Part shown: piece after piece, positions 2-22,100 of the stretch
How positions within the stretch are numbered: the stretch's first letter is position 1
Layout: each line of letters starts with the position of its first letter
The notes under the pieces: generated by a model
Told to the model about the DNA's origin: nothing
Databases searched by the model: none
The model's input: the letters and a program-made list of their open reading frames with translations, nothing else
Translations under genes and position numbers: made by a program
Origin: a virus
Direction: 5' to 3' (one strand)
IMG/VR virus record: IMGVR_UViG_3300043399_000369
Coordinates: 1 to 22,100 of that record
Length of the DNA: 22,100 nt

Positions 2-103
2 ACACATTGGCGCAACTTAGGGGCGTTAGATGACGACCACCTTTGGCAGCAATGGCGGCGGCTTTGCGAAGAACCCGGCCTAATCGAAGACGCAGCCCAA
101 TGA
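2..103 (+). CDS. C-terminal end of an unidentified upstream phage gene (partial)
   Basis: The window opens inside a reading frame with no stop from base 2 to a TGA at 101-103. It gives 33 residues, rich in Trp, Asp and Leu, ending in EDAAQ. The stop overlaps the ATG of the next gene in an ATGA arrangement, the coupling used throughout this operon, so I read it as a real C-terminus rather than chance. Its place directly before head-tail joining genes suggests a capsid-region protein (major capsid, scaffold or decoration), but the fragment carries no recognisable motif and the function cannot be stated. Confidence 0.55.
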   Translation, partial: THWRNLGALDDDHLWQQWRRLCEEPGLIEDAAQ

Positions 104-804
104 AAATATCGGTCATAATTCCTGTTTTTAATCAAATAGCGTTCACCATAAAATGCTTAGAATCGTTAGCACGACATGACCCGGTGCATGAAATTATCGT
201 TATTGACAACGGTTCCACAGACAGTACCGCACAACAATTAGACATTTTATCTGACGCAATCACAGTAATAACAAACGACGTAAACCGAGGGTTTGCGGTT
301 GCGTGCAATCAAGGCGCAGAAGCAGCAACCGGCAACATTCTTTATTTTCTCAACAATGACACAATCGTGCACCCCGGCTTTACCCGCATGGTATTGATGT
401 TAGAAAACCCTGACGTGGGCATTGTCGGCCCCAAACTTGTCTACCCTGACCTTTCAATACAGTCGGCAGGCATAGCGGTAGATTTTGACAGGCCGTTAGG
501 GTTAGAAGCATGGAACCTTTGCATTGATTGGACTAACGAACCGACAGATGTTTTTGCGGTTAGTGGCGCGGCGTTAGCGATACGGAAAGAAACGTTTGAA
601 ATTTTAGGCGGCTTCGATCAGCAATACTGGAACGGTTACGAAGACGTAGATTTGTGCTTAACTTCTATTTTTAGCGGCTACCGCAACATCTATTACCCGC
701 GTTCTTTGATTACCCATTTTGAATCACAGTCAGGCCCAGAAAGATTTTCAGCGGTAACCGCAAACGTAAACCTTCTTCGTAAAAAGTGGGAAACGAAACT
801 ATGA
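100..804 (+). CDS. Family 2 glycosyltransferase (GT-A fold), rhamnosyltransferase-like
   Basis: The 234-residue product begins MKISVIIPVFNQ, the classic N-terminal beta strand of GT2 enzymes. D36-N-G-S follows as the nucleotide-binding acid. NND at residues 85-87 sits where GT-A enzymes carry the metal-binding DxD. G-Y-E-D-V-D at 179-184 is the acceptor-side ED motif of WbbL/rhamnosyltransferase-like proteins. Such enzymes move a sugar from a nucleotide-sugar donor to an acceptor. I chose the ATG at 100 because it overlaps the upstream stop (ATGA) and begins exactly at the GT2 core; an in-frame ATG at 43 would add a basic, non-conserved leader. The stop overlaps the connector gene start. Its place inside the head-tail operon suggests it decorates a virion protein rather than DNA or host wall, but this is inference. 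No membrane helix is visible, so it is probably cytoplasmic. Confidence 0.88.
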   Translation: MKISVIIPVFNQIAFTIKCLESLARHDPVHEIIVIDNGSTDSTAQQLDILSDAITVITNDVNRGFAVACNQGAEAATGNILYFLNNDTIVHPGFTRMVLMLENPDVGIVGPKLVYPDLSIQSAGIAVDFDRPLGLEAWNLCIDWTNEPTDVFAVSGAALAIRKETFEILGGFDQQYWNGYEDVDLCLTSIFSGYRNIYYPRSLITHFESQSGPERFSAVTANVNLLRKKWETKL

Positions 805-6543: not shown

Positions 6544-8657
6544 CCGAAACTTTTGACGATGGCGTAACACTTAGCGTAGAAATTTCTTTTGATGCCCCAT
6601 CTGTAGAACCCCCAACTTGGGTGGACTTAACGGACAAGGCGCAACAGATAGAGATAGAACGCGGCCGCAGTTACGAACTAGACGACTTTCAAGCCGGACG
6701 TGCGGTAGTTCGGTTTGACAACCGGGACCGAATGTTAGACCCCACCTTTTCGGGTGCTTATTCGGGATTGCTGCCAATGGCACGTTTGCGAATTAGGGCC
6801 ACGCAAAACGCAAAGATGTACGATCTTTTTTACGGCTACATCAATAGTTGGCCTACCGCATACGAAAAAAACGATTATGCGCAGACGACAATTACAGCGT
6901 TTGATGCGTTGGCGGTTCTTAATCAGGACAGTTTGGAAAGCAGTCATCTAAAAAATGCGCTTACAAAAATTGACCCTTATGTTTGGTATGCGTTTGAAGA
7001 AACTAACGGGTCCACTGTCATTGTTGATAAGTCGGGCAATGGCATAAATGGTATTTACGGTACTGGTTCTGCCGGTGGTATTGGTGGCGAAGATTTAGGA
7101 ACAATTAACTACCAACAAAACCCTGTTCCTTTCGGTGATGCCGACGGAAAATCTGTTGATTTAGAAGACCAATGGCCGCTTCTATTCGACCAGTATTCAG
7201 TATTAAAAAACAGCCAATTTAATAGGTTGCCATCTTCCAAAAATCTTTTTGCAGAATCAAATTGGACAGTTGCCGTTGCATGGACAAAAACGAGTAATGC
7301 CCAATCAACCATTTTTTCCACCTGTCGCGATTTTGTAAAAAGAACTGGCGGTGGCGGTATAGGGCCAACAGTTTTAAGTTTGCCGTCAGAAAGCCAAAGG
7401 GCATTAACCACTTATAACAATAGAGTTAAATTGCAGCACGCTGGCGTTGAAATGCTTTTTACAAATGACAATCTTACCTACACAAACAGCGGCACTTATT
7501 TAGCGGTCATTACACGCGATAACGCAACTATTTCAATGCGTGTTTTAGCTTTTGACAGCAATGGCGTTTTGAAAGCAGATATAACAGGCACAGATACGTT
7601 AAGCGGTGACGCACTTTCGACAGACGCTTACGAAGTTTGGTTGGCGGCAGATCGCGGTTACATTTACGATATTTGGACTACCGGTAGCAATGTTCCCCCA
7701 GCAGGTCAAATGGCCGCCGCTGTATGCCCGCTGCGGGGACGTTTAGACGAGTTCGCCTATTGGAACCGCACATTGAACGCTACAGAACAGGCAGAAATTA
7801 TTTCTGCATATAGCGCAGCCTGGCCTAACGAATTGACAGGCGCACGAATTAATCGTGTTTTGGATACAGTCAGTTGGTCTTCAACAAATCGAAGCATTGA
7901 TATTGGCACGGCTACGGTTGAGCAAGGTACTTTGGGTGGTGACGCTTTAAGTTACATAAAAAAAGTGGCATTATCTGAAAATGGTGTTTTGTTCGTGAAT
8001 GGTGCTGGCAAAGTTGTTTTCCAGGATAGGTCAAATTATTTGACGGACGGTAGCAACATTCAAATTAAGTTCAGTGACAAAATCACAGTCGCAGATACAG
8101 CAACCTACAACGACCCCAACTACACCTATAACGCTGCGATTGAATATCAGGGCGCGATTGGTTACGAAGACATTCAATACGCCGGTTATGACGACCGGCT
8201 AGTAGCAAACGTCATAGATGTAGCCTATTCAAATGGTACCGCTACCGCTCGTGATTCTTCGTCTTATGACCGTTACAGGTGGCGCAAACAATCAGTTGAT
8301 ACGTTACTAACGACACAAACCGCAGCTTCACAACTAGCAAACGTGCGGTTAGGCCGTTACGCAACCCCGCAAGTTAGGGTTGCGTCAATTGTCGCCAACC
8401 CTCGCCGCTATCCTGCAAACGCTTGGTCTCCACTGTTAGGGGCAGAAATCGGCCAGGGTGTAAACGTAATCAGAACACCTATACGAAACAGCACCAGTTT
8501 TAGTATTCCCTCTGTCATTGAAGGGGTGCGTCATTCGATTGACGCAGGGGAAAAATCTTGGCGTGTTACGCTTACCCTTTCCCCGTTTGAACAGAACAAC
8601 TATTTAACTTTCGATAACGCAGTAAAGGTTTGGGACTCTACCCGTTGGGGTCCATGA
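6540..8657 (+). CDS. Minor tail protein with inserted LamG/concanavalin-like domain
   Basis: The product is about 705 residues long. The N-terminal ~145 residues (PPTWVDLTDKAQQIEIERGR, AGRAVVRFDNRDRMLDP, LFYGYINSWP) have the Dit/Tal-like pattern of minor tail proteins in actinophages. A LamG/concanavalin-like sandwich follows at about residues 145-430: it opens with DPYVWYAFEETNGSTVIVDKSG ('w.l.E..g....Ds.g') and closes with RGRLDEFAYWNRTLNATEQ, the standard LamG_3 ending. The rest returns to the tail-hub-like fold and ends in DSTRWGP. The LamG insert probably contacts a host surface glycan. I prefer GTG 6540, which makes a GTGA overlap with the tape measure stop; GTG 6531 is an alternative adding three residues. 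The gene lies where distal tail and tail-tip proteins are encoded. Confidence 0.82.
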   Translation: MTETFDDGVTLSVEISFDAPSVEPPTWVDLTDKAQQIEIERGRSYELDDFQAGRAVVRFDNRDRMLDPTFSGAYSGLLPMARLRIRATQNAKMYDLFYGYINSWPTAYEKNDYAQTTITAFDALAVLNQDSLESSHLKNALTKIDPYVWYAFEETNGSTVIVDKSGNGINGIYGTGSAGGIGGEDLGTINYQQNPVPFGDADGKSVDLEDQWPLLFDQYSVLKNSQFNRLPSSKNLFAESNWTVAVAWTKTSNAQSTIFSTCRDFVKRTGGGGIGPTVLSLPSESQRALTTYNNRVKLQHAGVEMLFTNDNLTYTNSGTYLAVITRDNATISMRVLAFDSNGVLKADITGTDTLSGDALSTDAYEVWLAADRGYIYDIWTTGSNVPPAGQMAAAVCPLRGRLDEFAYWNRTLNATEQAEIISAYSAAWPNELTGARINRVLDTVSWSSTNRSIDIGTATVEQGTLGGDALSYIKKVALSENGVLFVNGAGKVVFQDRSNYLTDGSNIQIKFSDKITVADTATYNDPNYTYNAAIEYQGAIGYEDIQYAGYDDRLVANVIDVAYSNGTATARDSSSYDRYRWRKQSVDTLLTTQTAASQLANVRLGRYATPQVRVASIVANPRRYPANAWSPLLGAEIGQGVNVIRTPIRNSTSFSIPSVIEGVRHSIDAGEKSWRVTLTLSPFEQNNYLTFDNAVKVWDSTRWGP

Positions 8658-10648: not shown

Positions 10649-10786
10649 ATGATCGATATTAATTCACCGTATTTAGAAGAAGGCGTTGTGCCGCTGCTTG
10701 CTTTCGACGAAGATTTAGAAAGTTTGCCGGACCCTAACGAAGGCGAAATGCAAGGCGAAGTTTTACCTGATGATTGGAAACCGTAA
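10649..10786 (+). CDS. Tiny acidic protein, 45 residues, unknown
   Basis: A 45-codon ORF fills the gap between the previous small gene and the endolysin. It starts at ATG 10649, three bases after the upstream TAG, and its TAA at 10784-10786 overlaps the endolysin ATG (TAATG). It is strongly acidic (many Asp/Glu, two Lys-type charges at most) with no predicted membrane helix, and ends DDWKP. The exact coupling on the downstream side and the continued coding-like codon use support it as real. Its end resembles that of the 40-residue acidic peptide at 13536 (DWNI). No function can be assigned. Confidence 0.55.
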   Translation: MIDINSPYLEEGVVPLLAFDEDLESLPDPNEGEMQGEVLPDDWKP

Positions 10787-11448
10787 TGGCTACTGTAGAT
10801 GAAACGCTTAATTTGGCACGCTCGTTTTTAGGTGAAGGGCCAAAACGGTTCACCGATTGGTACCCTGCCTCACCAACAACGCCGTGGTGCGCCATTTTCC
10901 AATCGTATGTTTTGACGGCTACAGGTCAGCCGTTGCATTACGCTTGGGTTTCCGGAATGTTTGACGCATACCGCGCGCAAGGTCGTAACAGTTACGACGT
11001 ACGCAGCGCGCAACCAGGCGATTTAGTCGCATTTGAATATGGCGAAAACAATGGCGGTTACGATCATATCGCAATGGTTGAATCTGTACCTATTGACGGT
11101 TCAGGCCTTGTTTGCATTAACGGCAACTGGCAAAACCGTGTGCAGCGTGTCCTGCATCGCTTTGACCGTTCCGGCTATGCGGGTGGCATTAAAGAAATTG
11201 CGCGCCCGTTCTATACTTCCCCAACACCGACCCCTACACCTGACGAGGACGAAATGAAATCTGTAATTATGTTTGACAAACGCTACAACCCTGCACGCGG
11301 TTTTCATGCTTGCGGAAATACAAAGGTTGCTTTAACGAGCATGGATCAAGTGCAAATGCTGCAATTTCTTGGCGTTCCTATTGTTGATGCCCCTAACGAA
11401 TGGATTGACGCACTGGCGACATTGCCACGAAATGACGGCGTAGTTTAG
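10786..11448 (+). CDS. Endolysin with CHAP peptidase domain
   Basis: The 220-residue protein begins MATVDETLNLARSFLGEGP, the opening helix of CHAP amidase/endopeptidase domains. TTPWCAIFQSYVL follows with the catalytic Cys at residue 35. AQPGDLVAFEY comes next, then YDHIAMVE with the catalytic His at 94 and a GNWQN loop near residues 113-117. It cleaves peptidoglycan, either the sugar-peptide amide or the cross-bridge. A Thr-Pro repeat linker (TSPTPTPTPDED, about 144-155) separates a C-terminal segment of about 65 residues (KRYNPARGFHACGNTK onward), which may bind the wall but matches no family I can name. The start at 10786 is chosen over an in-frame ATG at 10774 because it overlaps the upstream stop and begins at the domain. 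A holin-like gene follows directly, as expected in a lysis cassette. Confidence 0.9.
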   Translation: MATVDETLNLARSFLGEGPKRFTDWYPASPTTPWCAIFQSYVLTATGQPLHYAWVSGMFDAYRAQGRNSYDVRSAQPGDLVAFEYGENNGGYDHIAMVESVPIDGSGLVCINGNWQNRVQRVLHRFDRSGYAGGIKEIARPFYTSPTPTPTPDEDEMKSVIMFDKRYNPARGFHACGNTKVALTSMDQVQMLQFLGVPIVDAPNEWIDALATLPRNDGVV

Positions 11449-13549: not shown

Positions 13550-13658
13550 ACCTGATTTGATCCCTTTGCCGGTTGAAGAAGAACCAGAACCTTACGACCC
13601 GGACGAACACGAATACCCAGACGAGCAGGAATACCCTAAAAAAGATTGGAACATTTAA
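13536..13658 (+). CDS. Tiny acidic peptide, 40 residues, unknown
   Basis: The 40-codon ORF starts at ATG 13536 inside the end of the DUF6378-like gene and stops at TAA 13656-13658, which overlaps the holin ATG (TAATG). It is rich in Glu, Asp and Pro (PVEEEPEPYDPDEHEYPDEQ) and ends DWNI, without any hydrophobic segment. Overlap at both ends supports translation. It fills the only gap between two recognised genes. Function unknown; it could simply couple holin translation to the upstream gene. Confidence 0.5.
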   Translation: MTITEPDLIPLPVEEEPEPYDPDEHEYPDEQEYPKKDWNI

Positions 13659-13918
13659 TGAATAAGCAATTTGTGAAAGCAGCAGCGGAACGGGCGTTGA
13701 AGACGTTTGCGCAAACTTTGGCTGCGTTGGTGACTGTCGCACAGTTCGATTGGTTTAACGCTGATTGGGGGCAATTGTTGGGGACTGCTGCCGCAGCCGC
13801 ATTTGCGTCTATTTTGACTTCTATTGCTTCGGAACCGTTCGGCCCTAGTCATTCCCCTAGTTTGGTGGAAGAGATGCCTAAAATTGAATTTGAGGGCCGT
13901 TCAGGGCCTTTGCCGTAA
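13658..13918 (+). CDS. Holin, phage r1t type
   Basis: The 86-residue protein starts MNKQFVKAAAERALKTFAQTLAAL. It has two hydrophobic segments, at about residues 10-28 and 40-58 (DWGQLLGTAAAAAFASILTSI), separated by a short turn with WFNADW, and then a polar tail. The 'a..AaerA.kTfaQ......................dW...l..A..Aa..siltS..s' pattern is that of the r1t-type holin family, common in phages of Actinobacteria. It would make the membrane hole that releases the endolysin. I use ATG 13658 rather than the in-frame ATG 13646 because it starts the family pattern and overlaps the preceding stop. It is the last gene before the terminator region, so the lysis genes are split by four unrelated genes. Confidence 0.82.
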   Translation: MNKQFVKAAAERALKTFAQTLAALVTVAQFDWFNADWGQLLGTAAAAAFASILTSIASEPFGPSHSPSLVEEMPKIEFEGRSGPLP

Positions 13919-15577: not shown

Positions 15578-15786
15578 AACCCGAAAAGCACCAATTGAAA
15601 AAGTGGTTGCACGTCAGCAACGGCCTACTGCCATTGCAATTAGATAACGAACTAGACTGGGAACTACGCGAATATGTTGTAGAAGCCCGCATTGCCATTG
15701 TTGAAATGGTGGAACATATTCGACGTTTGCAAGAGATCGAAAAAATGTTGCGGGCAAGTTTGGAAGAAACAACAGATTTTGACTGA
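15574..15786 (+). CDS. Small helical protein, unknown
   Basis: The 70-residue product is coupled at both ends (ATGA with the resolvase-like gene, TGATG with whiB). A short Lys-rich start precedes a long amphipathic helix (LDWELREYVVEARIAIVEMVEHIRRLQEIEKMLRASLEE). It looks like a helical hairpin or coiled coil. A close relative of the AAGG...CACA motif precedes its start. No family was recognised. Confidence 0.62.
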   Translation: MKPEKHQLKKWLHVSNGLLPLQLDNELDWELREYVVEARIAIVEMVEHIRRLQEIEKMLRASLEETTDFD

Positions 15787-16118
15787 TGAAAGCGGCACGA
15801 CCAATACACCTATGGCATGAAAAAGCGGCTTGCAAAGGCAAAACTGACCTGTTTTTTCCTGAACCGGGAAAGGTAGAAAACAACAGAACGAAACTGGCGA
15901 AACAAACCTGCAAAACCTGCCCTGTATTTGACGACTGTTTAGCGCACGTTACTTACAACATAGAACGCTACGGAATCTGGGCAGGCATGAATGTGAAAGA
16001 ACGCAGCAGACACAGGGCAAGGCTTGGCATTAAGTTGTCTAGCGTTCCGCACGGCTACCGCACCAAATGGGAATCCGGCTGCCGTTGTCACATCTGCGTC
16101 ACAGAATACGGCGAATAA
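15786..16118 (+). CDS. whiB: WhiB-family iron-sulfur transcription regulator
   Basis: The 110-residue protein has the four WhiB cysteines that hold a 4Fe-4S cluster: C16, C42-x2-C45 and C51 (the family C...CxxC....C arrangement). The family turn G63-I-W-A-G-M follows in place of G[VI]WGG. A basic stretch (KERSRHRARLG) comes next, usual for DNA contact. WhiB proteins occur only in Actinobacteria and their phages and bind sigma-A to change transcription; phage members are known to repress host whiB genes and affect septation or superinfection. An extra C-terminal motif HGYRTKWESGCRCHICVTE adds a CxCxxC group that is not part of the core family and may bind another metal. Confidence 0.92.
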   Translation: MKAARPIHLWHEKAACKGKTDLFFPEPGKVENNRTKLAKQTCKTCPVFDDCLAHVTYNIERYGIWAGMNVKERSRHRARLGIKLSSVPHGYRTKWESGCRCHICVTEYGE

Positions 16119-16131
16119 CACACAACCCCGA

Positions 16132-16143
16132 AAGGCAGCACAA
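16132..16143 (+). repeat. Repeated ribosome-site motif AAGGCAGCACAA, copy 2
   Basis: These 12 bases are identical to those before the gene at 14160, and lie directly before ATG 16144 of the exonuclease gene. They sit in an A/C-rich 25-base gap after whiB. The shared start region suggests common translational control, or a recent shared origin of the leaders. Confidence 0.55.
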
Positions 16144-17718
16144 ATGGACACATTAGGACCAACAATCGAAAAATTGCGGTATGGCCGCTACCAGATCAAA
16201 CCGCCCGGCAAAAACGCACGCACCGGCTACACACGCGCCACAACCATCACCAAAACGTTAGACGACCAATCTTCACTTATACCGTGGAACGCAGCACGAA
16301 CCGCAATCGGCATAATTAAAGAACCGCATTTGTTTGCCGCTATCGCAGCGTGCGACCCGGAAAACAAAAAAGAACTTTACGACCTGTGCGAAAAAGCGGC
16401 AGAAGCGGGCGGGTCAGCAACCCGACGTGAGCAAGGCACAGCAATACACAAGTTTTTAGAACGCAAACTAGAAGACCCAACCTATGCACCGCCGGCCCCT
16501 TACGACCAAGACGTGCAATCAATCCTGCAAGCATTAGATAACGCAGGTTTAACAGTCATGCCGGGCCTTTCAGAATTCGTAGTCGTCAATCATGACCTGA
16601 AAATTGCTGGCACGGCAGACCTAGCGGTGCAAGACGCTAACGGAAACATTTACGTTGCTGACCTTAAAACTGGTTCATCAGTCAAATATGGGGCGCAAGC
16701 ATGGGCCATACAGTTGTTCATTTACGCCACCGGCAACGCCATCTACCATCATGCAGTAAACGAAGCGGACGATTACGAAACGCCTTTGCCGGCTTTCGAC
16801 CAGCAACGCGGCATTGTTTTACATTGCGAACCAGCATCAGGCAAAACCGACCTTTATTGGATTGACCTAACAGTAGGCAAAGACGGCTTAGAACTTGCCT
16901 TAGCAGTTCGCAAACATCGCAACATAAAACCGTTAGAACCGTTCACAATTACTGAAGCGACCACCAATCTTAAAATGGTTGCAGAAGAACAGTATGTGGA
17001 CGAACTTTGGCGGGTTTCAGCGACCGAACAGATCAAAGAGATTTTGCAACACCCGGACGCTGCGAAAGATTTGCAATGGCCGGCAAACATACCCACCCTG
17101 AAAAGCGGGCTGCCGATCACAGTTCAGCAAGGGCAAACAATTAACGACCTGCTGACCGTCATTTTCAAAATTCACCAACTGCCACTAATGCAAGTTGCGC
17201 CACCGCAAACAATCAAAGAACCCGAACCGGTCACACAACCCGAACCTGAACCGCAACCTGAACGGAAACCTTTACCGCCAGTTCACAACCTAGACAAGCC
17301 AGAAGACCCGCAAGTAACAGAAGATGACATTGCCGGGCTGCGTGTTCAAATTCAATTTTTGACAGAACCGCAACGTTGGTGGGCGCAAAACCATTTAGAA
17401 CAGTTGCGCGAAGAATGTTTAACTGTCGCTTTGCTGCCACCTACCGGGCAACCGTATTTGCGGAGATGGAACATTACGGCAACAATTCTGAACATGGCTG
17501 TTTTTGAAGATGACGAAATGCTGCAAGGCGTCGTTAAAGCCTGCACAAAACGGGCTTTCAAAACCACCGCAGACGGCTTAGGGCATTTGACAATTAAACA
17601 GTCCGAAAAGGCGTTTGAATTGTCGCAACAGATCGCGCACGAAACATTGATACCGGCTTGGACTGACGCCGGCCAAATCAAGTTCGTGCCAAACCCTCAC
17701 CAAATCGGTGCGGAATAA
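16144..17718 (+). CDS. Cas4/RecB-like PD-(D/E)XK exonuclease
   Basis: The 524-residue protein carries the RecB-nuclease motifs in order. REQGTAIHKFLE holds H102; SEFVVVNHDLKIAGTADLAV holds E144 and the metal acid D159; VADLKTGSS gives D173-x-K175; and a later Q in AWAIQLFIYATG is the QhxxY motif. No cysteine cluster like that of true Cas4 is visible around the domain. A Pro/Glu/Gln linker (roughly residues 358-385) joins a C-terminal helical domain of about 140 residues of unknown role. In actinophages this family, with a downstream small binding protein, serves DNA recombination or end processing. Start ATG 16144 has the AAGG motif; upstream in-frame sequence overlaps whiB and is not family-like. 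Confidence 0.85.
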   Translation: MDTLGPTIEKLRYGRYQIKPPGKNARTGYTRATTITKTLDDQSSLIPWNAARTAIGIIKEPHLFAAIAACDPENKKELYDLCEKAAEAGGSATRREQGTAIHKFLERKLEDPTYAPPAPYDQDVQSILQALDNAGLTVMPGLSEFVVVNHDLKIAGTADLAVQDANGNIYVADLKTGSSVKYGAQAWAIQLFIYATGNAIYHHAVNEADDYETPLPAFDQQRGIVLHCEPASGKTDLYWIDLTVGKDGLELALAVRKHRNIKPLEPFTITEATTNLKMVAEEQYVDELWRVSATEQIKEILQHPDAAKDLQWPANIPTLKSGLPITVQQGQTINDLLTVIFKIHQLPLMQVAPPQTIKEPEPVTQPEPEPQPERKPLPPVHNLDKPEDPQVTEDDIAGLRVQIQFLTEPQRWWAQNHLEQLREECLTVALLPPTGQPYLRRWNITATILNMAVFEDDEMLQGVVKACTKRAFKTTADGLGHLTIKQSEKAFELSQQIAHETLIPAWTDAGQIKFVPNPHQIGAE

Positions 17719-17747: not shown

Positions 17748-18161
17748 ATGATTGACCCGACATTGGCAAAATCACTTACCGAAACTTCCAACGTGGCAAA
17801 GTTCCCAAACGTAGGCGACAAGGTAGTAATCAAAATTACCGACCTGCAAGAACGTGAACAGACAGACTTCCGAACAGGTGAAGTTTTAACTTGGAAAGAC
17901 GGCAGCCCCAAAAAGCAGTTCGTTTTTTACGGTGTGGACCAAGACACCGGCGAAGAAACCCGCATTTTTGCTAAAGGTTTCATGCTCGGCGCAATTAAAG
18001 ACGCGTTGCGTGAAGCAAACGCAAACGTTGAAGAAGGCGGCGTTTTAGCGGTGCAGTTTTCGCACGAAGAACAAACCGAACCGGGCTTAAACCCTGCCAA
18101 AAAATATAAGGCGCAATACAAGCCACCGGTCAAAAGCATTAGTGCAGATGACCTGATTTAA
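17748..18161 (+). CDS. Putative ssDNA-binding (OB-fold-like) protein
   Basis: This 137-residue protein follows the exonuclease after 29 A/C-rich bases with AAGAGAAAGAAG as ribosome site. Strands at VGDKVVIKITDLQEREQ, KKQFVFYGVD, EETRIFAKGF and GGVLAVQFSHEE around one helix (MLGAIKDALREAN) suggest an OB-like barrel. The acidic C-terminal tip (ISADDLI) resembles the acidic hydrophobic tails of SSB proteins. Location beside a recombination exonuclease fits ssDNA binding. I do not recognise a named family, so the function is inference; it could also be an exonuclease partner. Confidence 0.5.
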   Translation: MIDPTLAKSLTETSNVAKFPNVGDKVVIKITDLQEREQTDFRTGEVLTWKDGSPKKQFVFYGVDQDTGEETRIFAKGFMLGAIKDALREANANVEEGGVLAVQFSHEEQTEPGLNPAKKYKAQYKPPVKSISADDLI

Positions 18162-18252: not shown

Positions 18253-18456
18253 GTGGAAAAACAACACCTACTTATCTGGTGTGACAACAACAACCGCTTC
18301 TACATTGACGCGGTGCATGGTGCCGACCGAATCACTCTCGCAACAGTTTCAGACCAAGCAGACGCAGAACAGATAGCAAGACATTTGTCTGGTTGGACAA
18401 GGCGAGAAGACGGACGGCCTTTCCCCATTCATCTTGGAAGGAACACAACACAATGA
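18253..18456 (+). CDS. Small unknown protein (67 residues)
   Basis: The gene starts with GTG 18253 after AAGAAAG and lies just downstream of the 15-bp hairpin. It reads HLLIWCDNNNRFYIDAVHGADRITLATVSDQADAEQIARHLSGWTRR: two strands, a helix and a basic tail. This compact alpha/beta pattern recalls small phage proteins of unknown role. Its stop is 12 to 24 bases before the Rpf gene, so the two are probably co-translated. No function assigned. Confidence 0.6.
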   Translation: MEKQHLLIWCDNNNRFYIDAVHGADRITLATVSDQADAEQIARHLSGWTRREDGRPFPIHLGRNTTQ

Positions 18457-18480
18457 AATTGGGGCATTGTGCAAACCGTT

Positions 18481-18993
18481 ATGAAAAAACCGTTACTGGT
18501 ACTTTTATTTGTATTCGCTATTGCAACAGCAATGGCGGTACACCAACCGACAAAAACAACATTTACAGCAACAGCACAAACCAAACCTAACGAACCTTCG
18601 ACACAAACGGCGGAAGAATACGCTTCGCAAGAAGCAGAAAGGCAACTTGTGGAATTTTTACAGGCAGCAGCAACCACCACGACGACAGTTAAACCGCGTG
18701 TAATCGCAACGCCACCAAATAACGATCCCGGCGACGGTTCCCGGTGGGACCAACTAGCAAAATGCGAATGTGGCGGCAATTGGGCGTGCAACACCGGCAA
18801 CGGTTTCGGCGGCGGCCTACAATTCATGCACCAAAACAGTTATTCGTCATGGCGTAGTTTTGGTGGCACAGAATTCACTCAACACCCGTGGGAAGCGACC
18901 CGAGAACAGCAAATTGTTGTAGCGGAACGCATCTTGGCTTCTTCTGGTTGGCGTGCTTGGCCGGGCTGCTCACGCAAATTCGGGTGGATATAA
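18481..18993 (+). CDS. Secreted Rpf-like transglycosylase (resuscitation-promoting factor domain)
   Basis: The 170-residue protein has a signal peptide (MKKPLLVLLFVFAIATAMA, cleavage probably after about residue 19). A Thr/Glu-rich spacer follows (to about residue 85, with TTTTTVKP), then a full Rpf domain. SRWDQLAKCECGGNW carries the catalytic E96, with ACNTGNGFGGGLQFMHQNSYSSWRSFGG after it, ATREQQIVVAERILASSGWRAWPGC next, and SRKFGWI at the end. Rpf domains are lysozyme-like enzymes that cut peptidoglycan glycan strands and, in Actinobacteria, help dormant cells resume growth. The C-E-C around the catalytic Glu replaces the usual C-E-S, and a further Cys in ACNTGN is extra. ATG 18481 gives the typical signal peptide; GTG 18469 would add MQTV and has a GGGG just upstream. 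Confidence 0.87.
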   Translation: MKKPLLVLLFVFAIATAMAVHQPTKTTFTATAQTKPNEPSTQTAEEYASQEAERQLVEFLQAAATTTTTVKPRVIATPPNNDPGDGSRWDQLAKCECGGNWACNTGNGFGGGLQFMHQNSYSSWRSFGGTEFTQHPWEATREQQIVVAERILASSGWRAWPGCSRKFGWI

Positions 18994-18995
18994 CG

Positions 18996-19232
18996 ATGGA
19001 TTGGTGGCCGTGGCTGCTATTCGCAGCCGAAATAATCGGCATAAGTTCAATCAGATACACAGCCAAAACCGGCAAATGGTGGGGGTGGCTGCTACCACTC
19101 GCAACAATGACCTGCTCGTGGGCCATCTACTCAATAACAACCCGGCAATGGGGATTCACCGCACTAACCGCCCTATGGGCCACAACCTACATAGCGAACG
19201 CACGAACTTGGAAAAGGAAAACACCCCGATGA
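18996..19232 (+). CDS. Small membrane protein, about three helices
   Basis: The 78-residue protein from ATG 18996 starts two bases after the Rpf stop. Hydrophobic segments lie at about residues 2-18 (DWWPWLLFAAEIIGISS), 28-46 (KWWGWLLPLATMTCSWAIY) and 52-68 (GFTALTALWATTYIANA), with a basic tail RTWKRKTPR that should stay in the cytoplasm. Tryptophans cluster at the membrane edges. The stop overlaps the methyltransferase ATG. It may be a transport or immunity-type protein; nothing in it identifies a family. Confidence 0.62.
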   Translation: MDWWPWLLFAAEIIGISSIRYTAKTGKWWGWLLPLATMTCSWAIYSITTRQWGFTALTALWATTYIANARTWKRKTPR

Positions 19233-20302
19233 CCTACCAACTATTGCACGGCAACTGTTTAGACATACTAAAAACATTGCCTGACAATTCTATAGACGCA
19301 ATCGTTACCGACCCGCCTTACGAACTTGGTTTTATGGGCAAAAAATGGGATGCGTCCGGCATCGCCTACAACGTTGAAATGTGGGAACAATGCTTGCGCG
19401 TGTTGAAACATGGCGGCCATTTGTTAGCGTTCGGCGGCACACGCACATATCACCGAATGGCGTGCGCAATCGAAGATGCAGGTTTTGAAATTCGTGACTC
19501 AATCCATTGGTTGTACGGATCAGGGTTTCCGAAATCGTTAGATGTTTCAAAAGCGATAGATAAAGCGGCAGGGGCAGATCGGGAGATTGTCGGAAAACAC
19601 CCTAACCCCGGAAGTGTAAAGCCACGCATTGCAATGGGTGAACGCTGGAAAGCCGAACCCGACATAACCGCGCCGGCTACTGACGCAGCAAAACAATGGG
19701 AAGGTTGGGGAACCGCACTAAAACCAGCACACGAACCCGTCGTAGTCGCACGCAAACCACTAGACGGAACTGTGGCAAACAATGTTTTACAACACGGCAC
19801 CGGCGCACTCAACATAGACGCAACACGCGCAAACGAACGCTGGCCTGCAAACCTAATCATTGACGAAACAATCGCAGAACAGCACCCCGAATGGGCTAAC
19901 TACTTTTATTGCCCGAAACCGTCAAAACGGGAACGCAACGCAGGACTAGATGACCTTCCAAACAAACTAGGCGGATCGCTTGAAGGTGGAAACGACAAAC
20001 GCAAGGGCGACAAGCCGCAACTTCAACTAACAAAAAACTTTCACCCGACTGTCAAACCGCTCGCCCTAATGCAATACCTAATACGGCTAGTAACACCACC
20101 CGACGGCACAGTTTTAGACCCGTTCGCCGGATCAGGAACCACACTCGCCGCAGCAATCCTAGAAAACAAAAATGCTATAGGCATCGAACTAACCGACGAC
20201 TACCTACCAATCATCGAAGCGCGATGCCAATGGGCGACCGAACAAAAACAGCAGCAAACCGACCAGCAGCCAACTTTATTCGACGAAAGCACACCCCGAT
20301 GA
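19229..20302 (+). CDS. Orphan DNA methyltransferase, beta class (N6-adenine or N4-cytosine)
   Basis: The 357-residue protein opens LLHGNCLDILKTLPDNSIDAIVTDPPYE, with catalytic motif IV D28-P-P-Y31. The central part (roughly residues 90-270) holds the target-recognition region. It closes with FHPTVKPLALMQYLIRLVTP, then LDPFAGSGTT (motif I, binding S-adenosylmethionine, F299 onward) and IGIELTDDYLPII. Motif IV before motif I defines the beta class. No restriction endonuclease gene is next to it, so it is probably a solitary enzyme that protects phage DNA from host restriction or marks it for replication. ATG 19229 has GGAAAAGGAAA and overlaps the previous stop. Confidence 0.88.
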   Translation: MTYQLLHGNCLDILKTLPDNSIDAIVTDPPYELGFMGKKWDASGIAYNVEMWEQCLRVLKHGGHLLAFGGTRTYHRMACAIEDAGFEIRDSIHWLYGSGFPKSLDVSKAIDKAAGADREIVGKHPNPGSVKPRIAMGERWKAEPDITAPATDAAKQWEGWGTALKPAHEPVVVARKPLDGTVANNVLQHGTGALNIDATRANERWPANLIIDETIAEQHPEWANYFYCPKPSKRERNAGLDDLPNKLGGSLEGGNDKRKGDKPQLQLTKNFHPTVKPLALMQYLIRLVTPPDGTVLDPFAGSGTTLAAAILENKNAIGIELTDDYLPIIEARCQWATEQKQQQTDQQPTLFDESTPR

Positions 20303-22100
20303 CCGACACGCTACAAACCGCCTTGCAATACGCACAGCAAGGCTGGCATATCGTCCCAATCATGCCCGGCGAAAAACGGCCAGCAATCCAAAACTGGACA
20401 GAACACGCCACCAACAACCCCGAACAAATCCGCAACTGGTGGCAACAAAACCCAAACTACGGAATCGGCCTCGCCACCGGCCCACAATCAAAACTATTCG
20501 CAATAGACATAGACGTAACCGAAACAAAAAACGGCTACGACACACTCAACGATTTAGAAGAAACGTACGGCCAACTGCCCGAAACATTAACCAACCTGAC
20601 ACCAACCGGCGGCATGCACCTTATTTACCGTTGGCCAGACGGTGCAGACATACGAAACGATGCCGGCCGCAAACTAGGACCGGGCATAGACGTGCGCGGC
20701 AACGGCGGCCAAATCCTTATCCACCCGTCACAACACCCCAACGGCGGCCACTACCAATTCGACGCAGGACAACCCGCACAACCACAACCCGCCCCCGAAT
20801 GGCTAATACAACTGCTAACCCCCGAACCAGCTCAACCAAAACCTGCACCAACCCCAAACGTCACCAGCCAACCCGCAGAAAGCCCGGCAGCACGCTACTG
20901 CCAAGAAACCAGCTGGCCTGACCTGCTCACCGCAGACGGCTGGACACTCGCCTTCATAGACCAACGCACAGGCGAACATCATTGGACCCGACCGGGAAAA
21001 AAAGAAGGAACATCAGCAACCACCCACTACGCAGACACAGACGCCCTAGTGGTATTCACCACAAGCCTTGACTGGCTGCCACCCGGTGCTTACTCACGCT
21101 TCGGCTACTACGCCAACCGACACCACAACGGCGACCGCAGCGAAGCAGCCAGCCAACTAGCGCAAACCTACCAACACGACACAGAACAATTCTTCACAAA
21201 CCAAACATTCACCAGCACCACAACCACCACAGAAACGCAACCAGAAACCCCAAACACACAACGGCTAGAACTTGCGCATTTAGTCAATTGGGAAAAACTG
21301 TGGACCGACGACCGACCCGATCAAGAATGGATTGCTGAACCGATCTTGCCGGCCAAAAGAAGCGTCAGCATCTACGCACCAGCCAAAGCAGGCAAATCAA
21401 CCATAACGCTAGCCATAGTCGCAGCAGTAGCAACCGGCGGCTACGTCCTCGGTCACCACAAAGCCACACCAACAGACGTACTCTATCTGGACTACGAAAT
21501 GACCGAAGACGATCTGATAGAACGCCTATCAGGACTCGGCTACGGCCCCCAAGACGACCTAACAAAACTGCACTACGCACTACTACCAAGCCTGCCGCCC
21601 CTAGACACAGCCGAAGGCGCAGCCGCCCTACTCACACTCGTAGACCACACCAACGCACAATTAGTAGTCGTAGACACCTTCGGCCGTGCAGTCGAAGGCG
21701 ACGAAGACAAAGCCGACACCGTACGCAACTTCTACCGGCACACCGGGCTAGCACTCAAAGCCCGTGACGTAGCCGTATGCAGAACAGACCACACAGGCAA
21801 AGACACCAAAAAAGGGCAACGAGGCAGCAGCGCAAAAAACGACGACCTAGACGTAGTTTGGCAACTAGCCCGCACACAATCACGCACAGGCGACGGACTC
21901 ACCCTAACCCGCACCCACAGCCGCATAAGTTGGATACCCGAACAAATCCGAATAGAACGAATCGAAACAGAACACGGCCACGACTACCGCGCAGACCTAC
22001 AAAACGAAACATGGCCAGACGGAACCCGACAAGACGCAGACCTACTCAACCACCTACAAATCCCCTTAGACGCATCGCAACGGCAAGCAGCGCAAACAAT
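20299..22100 (+). CDS. Primase-polymerase / helicase-like ATPase fusion (partial, runs off the end)
   Basis: The frame is open from ATG 20299 (ATGA overlap with the methyltransferase) to the last base, about 600 residues with no stop. Residues 1-170 are a Prim-Pol domain: LQYAQQGWHIVPIMPGEKRP, then LFAIDIDV with catalytic D70 and D72, TPTGGMHLIY with H107, and GIDVRGNGGQILIHPS with D131. A Pro/Gln linker (about 170-195) follows. From about residue 335 there is a RepA/AAA_25-like ATPase: IYAPAKAGKST (Walker A, K366) with LYLDYEMTEDDLIERL and LVVVDTFGRA (Walker B) after it. It should prime and unwind phage DNA. The C-terminus is cut, so total length is unknown. The coding strand is strongly A/C-rich here. 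Confidence 0.88.
   Translation, partial: MTDTLQTALQYAQQGWHIVPIMPGEKRPAIQNWTEHATNNPEQIRNWWQQNPNYGIGLATGPQSKLFAIDIDVTETKNGYDTLNDLEETYGQLPETLTNLTPTGGMHLIYRWPDGADIRNDAGRKLGPGIDVRGNGGQILIHPSQHPNGGHYQFDAGQPAQPQPAPEWLIQLLTPEPAQPKPAPTPNVTSQPAESPAARYCQETSWPDLLTADGWTLAFIDQRTGEHHWTRPGKKEGTSATTHYADTDALVVFTTSLDWLPPGAYSRFGYYANRHHNGDRSEAASQLAQTYQHDTEQFFTNQTFTSTTTTTETQPETPNTQRLELAHLVNWEKLWTDDRPDQEWIAEPILPAKRSVSIYAPAKAGKSTITLAIVAAVATGGYVLGHHKATPTDVLYLDYEMTEDDLIERLSGLGYGPQDDLTKLHYALLPSLPPLDTAEGAAALLTLVDHTNAQLVVVDTFGRAVEGDEDKADTVRNFYRHTGLALKARDVAVCRTDHTGKDTKKGQRGSSAKNDDLDVVWQLARTQSRTGDGLTLTRTHSRISWIPEQIRIERIETEHGHDYRADLQNETWPDGTRQDADLLNHLQIPLDASQRQAAQT

Follow-up and report, generated by a model that had tools for sequence, protein, structure and literature searches.

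Phage lysins are usually sorted into entry enzymes, which belong to the virion, and exit enzymes, the endolysins; secreted and SAR endolysins are phage muralytic enzymes that are exported via Sec. A phage Rpf domain is found as Rpf motif 1 of the mycobacteriophage tape measure proteins, where it belongs to a virion protein with a role in entry, whereas the Rpf protein described here is separate, carries a leader and is encoded in a replication module. Stand-alone Rpf or transglycosylase genes are also present in the database records of cultured phages, namely the Rhodococcus phages Trina and Dorin, the M. abscessus prophage prophi79-1 and the Streptomyces phage GiJojo. Like the gene studied here, they are separate genes with a signal-like leader, and those of Trina and Dorin lie beside a methyltransferase and ThyX (plus a RecD-like helicase in Trina). 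However, the cultured-phage proteins fall into a different Rpf clade, the Rpf domain of Trina and Dorin is N-terminal with a C-terminal tail, the GiJojo gene is near its endolysin, and the prophi79-1 gene adjoins the terminase. To our knowledge, swapping of the catalytic domain has not been reported for these stand-alone proteins. Such swapping is described in cellular proteins as the non-orthologous domain displacement of RpfB/YabE (Rpf/Sps; Ravagnani, 2005; PMC1084345), in which the same position and accessory part are combined with a different transglycosylase domain.

Here, we analysed a 22,100-nucleotide stretch of viral DNA (IMG/VR record IMGVR_UViG_3300043399_000369, positions 1 to 22,100; hereafter the window), which carries an Rpf gene that had been predicted from the sequence to be a stand-alone secreted protein beside replication genes.

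Results

The Rpf gene is located at 18481..18993 on the + strand, starts with ATG and encodes 170 amino acids plus a stop; its product was assigned to PF06737 and PHROG 29757 (transglycosylase), with a predicted RpfB fold. Contig L002, which is 99% identical to the window, has an in-frame stop immediately before the equivalent ATG, so the ATG at 18481, and not the GTG at 18469, is the conserved start. The product begins with a hydrophobic Sec-type leader (18481..18537, +; start backed by L002), which is followed by a Thr-rich low-complexity spacer of about 65 residues (18538..18735, +; TTTTT), variable among relatives in the alignment and the leader/linker comparison, and by the core of the Rpf catalytic domain (residues 86-163; 18736..18969, +; Pfam boundaries). 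Judged by pattern and hydrophobicity only, the leader MKKPLLVLLFVFAIATAMA, followed by VH, is Sec/SPase I-like and has no lipobox, with predicted cleavage between AMA and VH. The stand-alone protein, its spacer and, within the reach of such pattern analysis, its signal peptide thus agreed with the original prediction.

PF06737 matched residues 86-163 with E=5.4e-27 (94.7 bits against a cut-off of 27 bits) and was the sole Pfam family above cut-off; the accessory domains DUF348 and G5 were absent from the protein, which places it outside the RpfB subfamily. NCBIfam RpfC also matched (E=2e-22), under its equivalog cut-off, and the RpfB, RpfC and RpfE chains in the PDB matched at about E=1e-21 to 1e-17. 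The AlphaFold model could be superposed on the RpfB catalytic domain 4emn with a TM score of 0.91, normalised to the target, and 1.2 A. E96, which had been proposed as the retained catalytic Glu, aligned with the catalytic Glu of RpfB and was invariant across the alignment, as were C95 and C163, which aligned with the disulfide Cys pair of RpfB. The domain score, the catalytic Glu, the Cys pair and the predicted RpfB-type fold mark the putative product as an intact member of the Rpf family. The Rpf domain has been under purifying selection, with a median dN/dS of 0.18 over 126 pairs that are not independent of one another.

The C95-E96-C97 segment (18763..18771, +) comprises, according to the alignments, the catalytic Glu, the conserved Cys95 (partner Cys163) and an extra Cys97. 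It had been noted that this C-E-C differs from a usual C-E-S; Cys97 is indeed real, but the residue that usually follows the Glu is A, T or S and not only S, and Cys97 comes with Cys103 (18787..18789, +). C97 and C103 co-occurred in the window and L002, in L003 and in L018, and no other sequence seen has either. Because the tree unites the window, L003 and L018 (support 89/92), the pair represents a consistent trait of one lineage and not repeated covariation, and no claim of an independent gain can be made. The pair suggests a second disulfide, C97-C103, beside C95/C163, rather than altered catalysis.

The gene order around Rpf on the + strand is as follows: a RusA-like nuclease, a WhiB-like regulator (15786..16118; PF02467, E=7e-18), which is an actinophage marker, a PD-(D/E)XK or Cas4-like exonuclease (16141..17718; PHROG 466, E=3e-56), a PHROG 1911 protein of the replication module (17748..18161; E=1.5e-23), a small ORF directly upstream of Rpf (18253..18456), which recurs in relatives at the corresponding place with 32-99% conservation, Rpf, a small predicted membrane protein (18996..19232; PHROG 2421, E=1e-10), a DNA N6/N4 methyltransferase (19229..20302; PF01555, E=3e-36) and a Prim-Pol/AAA replicative protein that runs off the window (20299..22100; PF09250, E=3e-46; PF13481, E=2e-25). 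The membrane protein gene starts right after the Rpf stop and its end overlaps the methyltransferase start; from Rpf through Prim-Pol, each gene either adjoins the next or overlaps it by 4 bases. The separate lysis enzyme, a CHAP endolysin (10774..11448, +; PF05257, E=4e-8; PHROG 21825 endolysin), lies 7 kb from Rpf, and the holin is at 13646..13918 (+; PHROG 443, E=2e-21). The predicted placement next to replication genes and far from endolysin and holin was therefore borne out. Because the genes from Rpf to Prim-Pol abut or overlap while endolysin and holin are separate, Rpf is likely co-expressed with the replication genes; early or middle timing is read from position only. Promoter and terminator scans gave no signal above chance, and Rfam and tRNA scans gave no matches. 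The PHROG 2421 protein between Rpf and the methylase has no assigned function, and similar proteins occur elsewhere in phages, not always adjoining Rpf.

Separate endolysins were also found in the Rpf or slot-SLT phages checked, with CHAP in the window and G441 and Amidase_2 in G439, G440, G442, G443 and G444. In G432, which has an upstream SLT-like gene, a VanY-type endolysin follows a small holin-like ORF. We considered the window Rpf as the phage endolysin and rejected this, given the CHAP endolysin and holin elsewhere and the amidase or VanY endolysins of relatives. In the other upstream-SLT phages tested, a search for the two families CHAP and Amidase_2 found neither, and the SLT-like protein could be a lysis enzyme there.

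A scan with the Rpf protein matched 24 viral contigs, and the synteny of the window was common to three of them, L002, L005 and L021 (65% GC). The remaining contigs belong to different phages, in which Rpf is a separate gene near the endolysin, after the terminase or among unknown genes. The lineage of the window was then sampled by scans with PHROG 1911 and Prim-Pol as anchors. With PHROG 1911, Rpf was found in all 18 loci that reach the position occupied by Rpf in the window (the slot); the other six contigs end before it. Loss of Rpf in close relatives was thus rejected, because the Rpf-less contigs stop short of the slot, and one of them (L190/L266) carries Rpf at its other end. Among 80 Prim-Pol loci scanned, 52 contigs besides the window hold both exonuclease and Prim-Pol, and the counts over these 52 are not independent owing to shared ancestry. 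Rpf lies in the exonuclease/Prim-Pol interval in 22 of the 52, an exported SLT-type transglycosylase lies in the same interval in three, and an exported SLT-like protein is encoded upstream of the exonuclease in 21, with 15 of these upstream genes 1.08-1.11 kb from the exonuclease, before WhiB and the nuclease. Neither enzyme was seen in 6/52 contigs, which are mostly truncated on that side, and both together in 0/52. The check proposed with the original prediction, a search for the same gene by replication genes in related phages, was positive in these two samples. Rpf is conserved in this uncultured actinophage lineage, whose members are mostly from freshwater.

In the slot protein of L198/L199, a lipobox-bearing leader (VSGC) and a Thr-rich linker precede a C-terminal domain whose Pfam match is SLT_3/SLT and not Rpf; these SLT proteins resemble the Rpf proteins of the lineage at the N-terminal start (MDE/MDD) and in their TTTT linkers. 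Comparison of the Rpf genes of L263 (228-830) and L264 (6188-6730) revealed two Rpf lobe types, NTGNGFGGGLQFMHQ and PPVSGGFSGGLMFHIGTW, behind a near-identical leader and linker, with C-terminal helices little changed. This looks like recombination inside the domain that replaced the substrate lobe alone. By pattern, a lipobox is present in 11/50 proteins, and the rest have SPase I- or anchor-like leaders. Most upstream SLT-like proteins were too divergent for the Pfam cut-off; for the commonest divergent type, the predicted structure had a mean pLDDT of 55, Foldseek was uninformative, and profile searches gave mostly weak lysozyme matches (E>=0.013). The trait that appears conserved in these comparisons is a predicted exported glycan cutter in the replication module, and what appears exchanged is its cutting cassette and its anchoring.

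Several individual contigs deserve mention. An SLT-like family lies upstream of WhiB in L226, L227, L230, L231, L236 and similar contigs at a fixed 1.1 kb from the exonuclease, and the member tested had no Pfam match. The Rpf of L018 (3585-4133) has about 35 predicted cytoplasmic residues before its transmembrane segment, which is a signal-anchor form, and lies about 0.7 kb from holin and endolysin on the opposite strand. L021 has an apparent frameshift within the Rpf domain (about 7748-8402), either a sequencing error or a decaying gene. In L190/L266 (33,012 bp), the module is divided between the two contig ends, which suggests a complete, circularly permuted genome of the lineage of about 33 kb.

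The best cellular matches of the window Rpf were Rpf proteins of freshwater Actinomycetota (Acidimicrobiia) MAGs, from the family that also holds Ca. Microthrix. These genes sit at a metG-tatD-rpf-rsmA-ispE locus, the arrangement of the rpfB locus in mycobacteria. Phage and Acidimicrobiia MAG proteins have in common a 4-residue insertion (QFAHG..WSTW / QFMHQ..YSTW) and cluster together (support 100/98) in a tree built on 81 columns, whose finer branching is unsure. The window Prim-Pol was searched against 395 Acidimicrobiia genomes for prophages and gave distant matches only (<=48% identity); the short flanks read beside these matches contained no Rpf/SLT and no module. Since the prophage search yielded distant matches only, the host is assigned from Rpf kinship and WhiB, and was probably an acidimicrobial or related freshwater actinobacterium.

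Discussion

The window Rpf resembles the actinobacterial Rpf family (RpfB/RpfC/RpfE; PF06737) in its predicted fold, its catalytic Glu, its C95/C163 disulfide pair and its predicted secreted or anchored form, and its closest cell homologues are at the rpfB locus. It differs in being phage-borne, in having neither G5/DUF348 nor LysM, in the extra C97/C103 and in the 4-residue insertion (FMHQ/FAHG type), for which some Acidimicrobiia were the only other carriers in the sequences seen. The export route is predicted to be like that of secreted or SAR endolysins; in contrast to these, the gene lies outside the lysis cassette of a phage that has a separate endolysin. By itself, a stand-alone phage Rpf is no novelty, given that cultured Rhodococcus phages already have such genes near DNA-metabolism genes. 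The new part appears to be the exchangeable exported slot, whereas the stand-alone phage Rpf is already in databases; in a partial literature search, we found no account of actinophage replication modules with a conserved slot for interchangeable exported enzymes. Unlike the RpfB/YabE case, the exchange here is of Rpf against SLT and of Rpf against another Rpf lobe, within one phage lineage.

We consider the chances about even that the phage-encoded Rpf serves to remodel the wall of the infected cell or to support its lysis. The gene would have been acquired from a host, from an rpf of the type found at the rpfB locus (metG-tatD-rpf-rsmA-ispE), and its product would act as a phage lytic glycosidase exported by Sec, which would cut the glycan strands of the infected cell's peptidoglycan from outside the cell's own membrane during genome replication. 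Glycan cutting would loosen or remodel the wall, and the enzyme would complement the endolysin, which cleaves peptides and which the holin finally releases. This combination of a glycan cutter and a peptide- or amide-cleaving endolysin may be likened to the pairing of RpfB and RpfE with the endopeptidase RipA in mycobacteria (PMC6736417). The slot also fits the report that some mycobacteriophages need host Rpfs in order to lyse and replicate optimally (PMC12908700). We infer that the phage enzyme is catalytically active, is actually exported, is expressed with replication, acts in cis and cooperates in lysis. On the other side, cutting of the wall ahead of lysis might do harm if the enzyme were more than mildly active.

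The evidence fits lysis help, growth maintenance and superinfection exclusion alike. As a growth or anti-dormancy factor acting in cis, Rpf or SLT would free anhydro-muropeptides or sustain septation and wall growth, which would keep a slow-growing infected cell active and enlarge its burst. We regard this as unlikely: it agrees with the Rpf origin, with the placement among replication genes and with the up-regulation of four host rpf genes in Rhodococcus during phage WC1 infection (PMC10986025), and the same kind of product is expected from Rpf and SLT, so the swap is compatible with it, yet the Rpf-specific partner domains (G5, LysM) are not retained. Somewhat less probable again is superinfection exclusion, in which an exported and often tethered wall enzyme alters the wall such that a second phage cannot inject, as Ltp-type exclusion lipoproteins do. 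The signal or lipoprotein leader, disordered linker and extracytoplasmic domain encoded in a non-structural module, with several catalytic variants, recall the Ltp-like precedent (PMC11480721). However, muralytic activity is not described for the known Ltp proteins, every member here has a catalytic-type lysozyme-superfamily domain, with Rpf under purifying selection, and in Pfam and pattern searches the window protein has neither Ltp HTH-type repeats nor a lipobox, the latter being present in some relatives.

The suggestion that the secreted Rpf wakes dormant neighbours and so widens the pool of infectable hosts fared poorly, and we now think it very improbable. The SPase I-like leader of the window protein, in which the pattern of a lipobox is absent, would permit diffusion, and dormant Actinobacteria are resuscitated by Rpf proteins (PMC1084345; PMC12090717). 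At the same locus, however, relatives have lipoprotein- or anchor-like leaders, and an exported SLT replaces Rpf in some; competing phages would moreover share in the benefit, which makes it a public good. Because lipoprotein forms stay on the producing cell, they favour action on the wall of that infected cell over the waking of neighbours. We give least credence of all to a virion- or tail-associated entry lysin. Rpf domains do occur in the tape measure proteins of many actinophages (PMC1796659; PMC6392294), but in the window lineage Rpf has a gene of its own, which encodes an export leader and lies outside the structural module, and no fusion to structural proteins was seen among the IMG/VR relatives examined.

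For the lineage as a whole, we tentatively propose, with confidence just short of even, that widespread uncultured actinophages keep a dedicated replication-module gene for an exported wall cutter of the lysozyme superfamily, retaining its export and its module but exchanging its catalytic cassette (two Rpf lobe types and several SLT types) and its mode of attachment (a secreted or a lipoprotein form). Its product would remodel the wall from the inside while the genome replicates, a programme separate from those of entry lysins and of endolysins. An exported glycan cutter that is conserved among replication genes would point to a third use of lysins, on the infected cell's wall in the replication phase. 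The natural Rpf/SLT swaps in one gene module also offer a direct test of whether a phage Rpf means resuscitation or merely glycan cutting.

By eye, glycosyltransferase-like proteins were also seen among the head-tail genes of the window (43-804 and 1840-2850), and the relatives L299/L300 likewise have glycosyltransferase-like ORFs among head-tail genes; virion or receptor glycosylation is a possible role.
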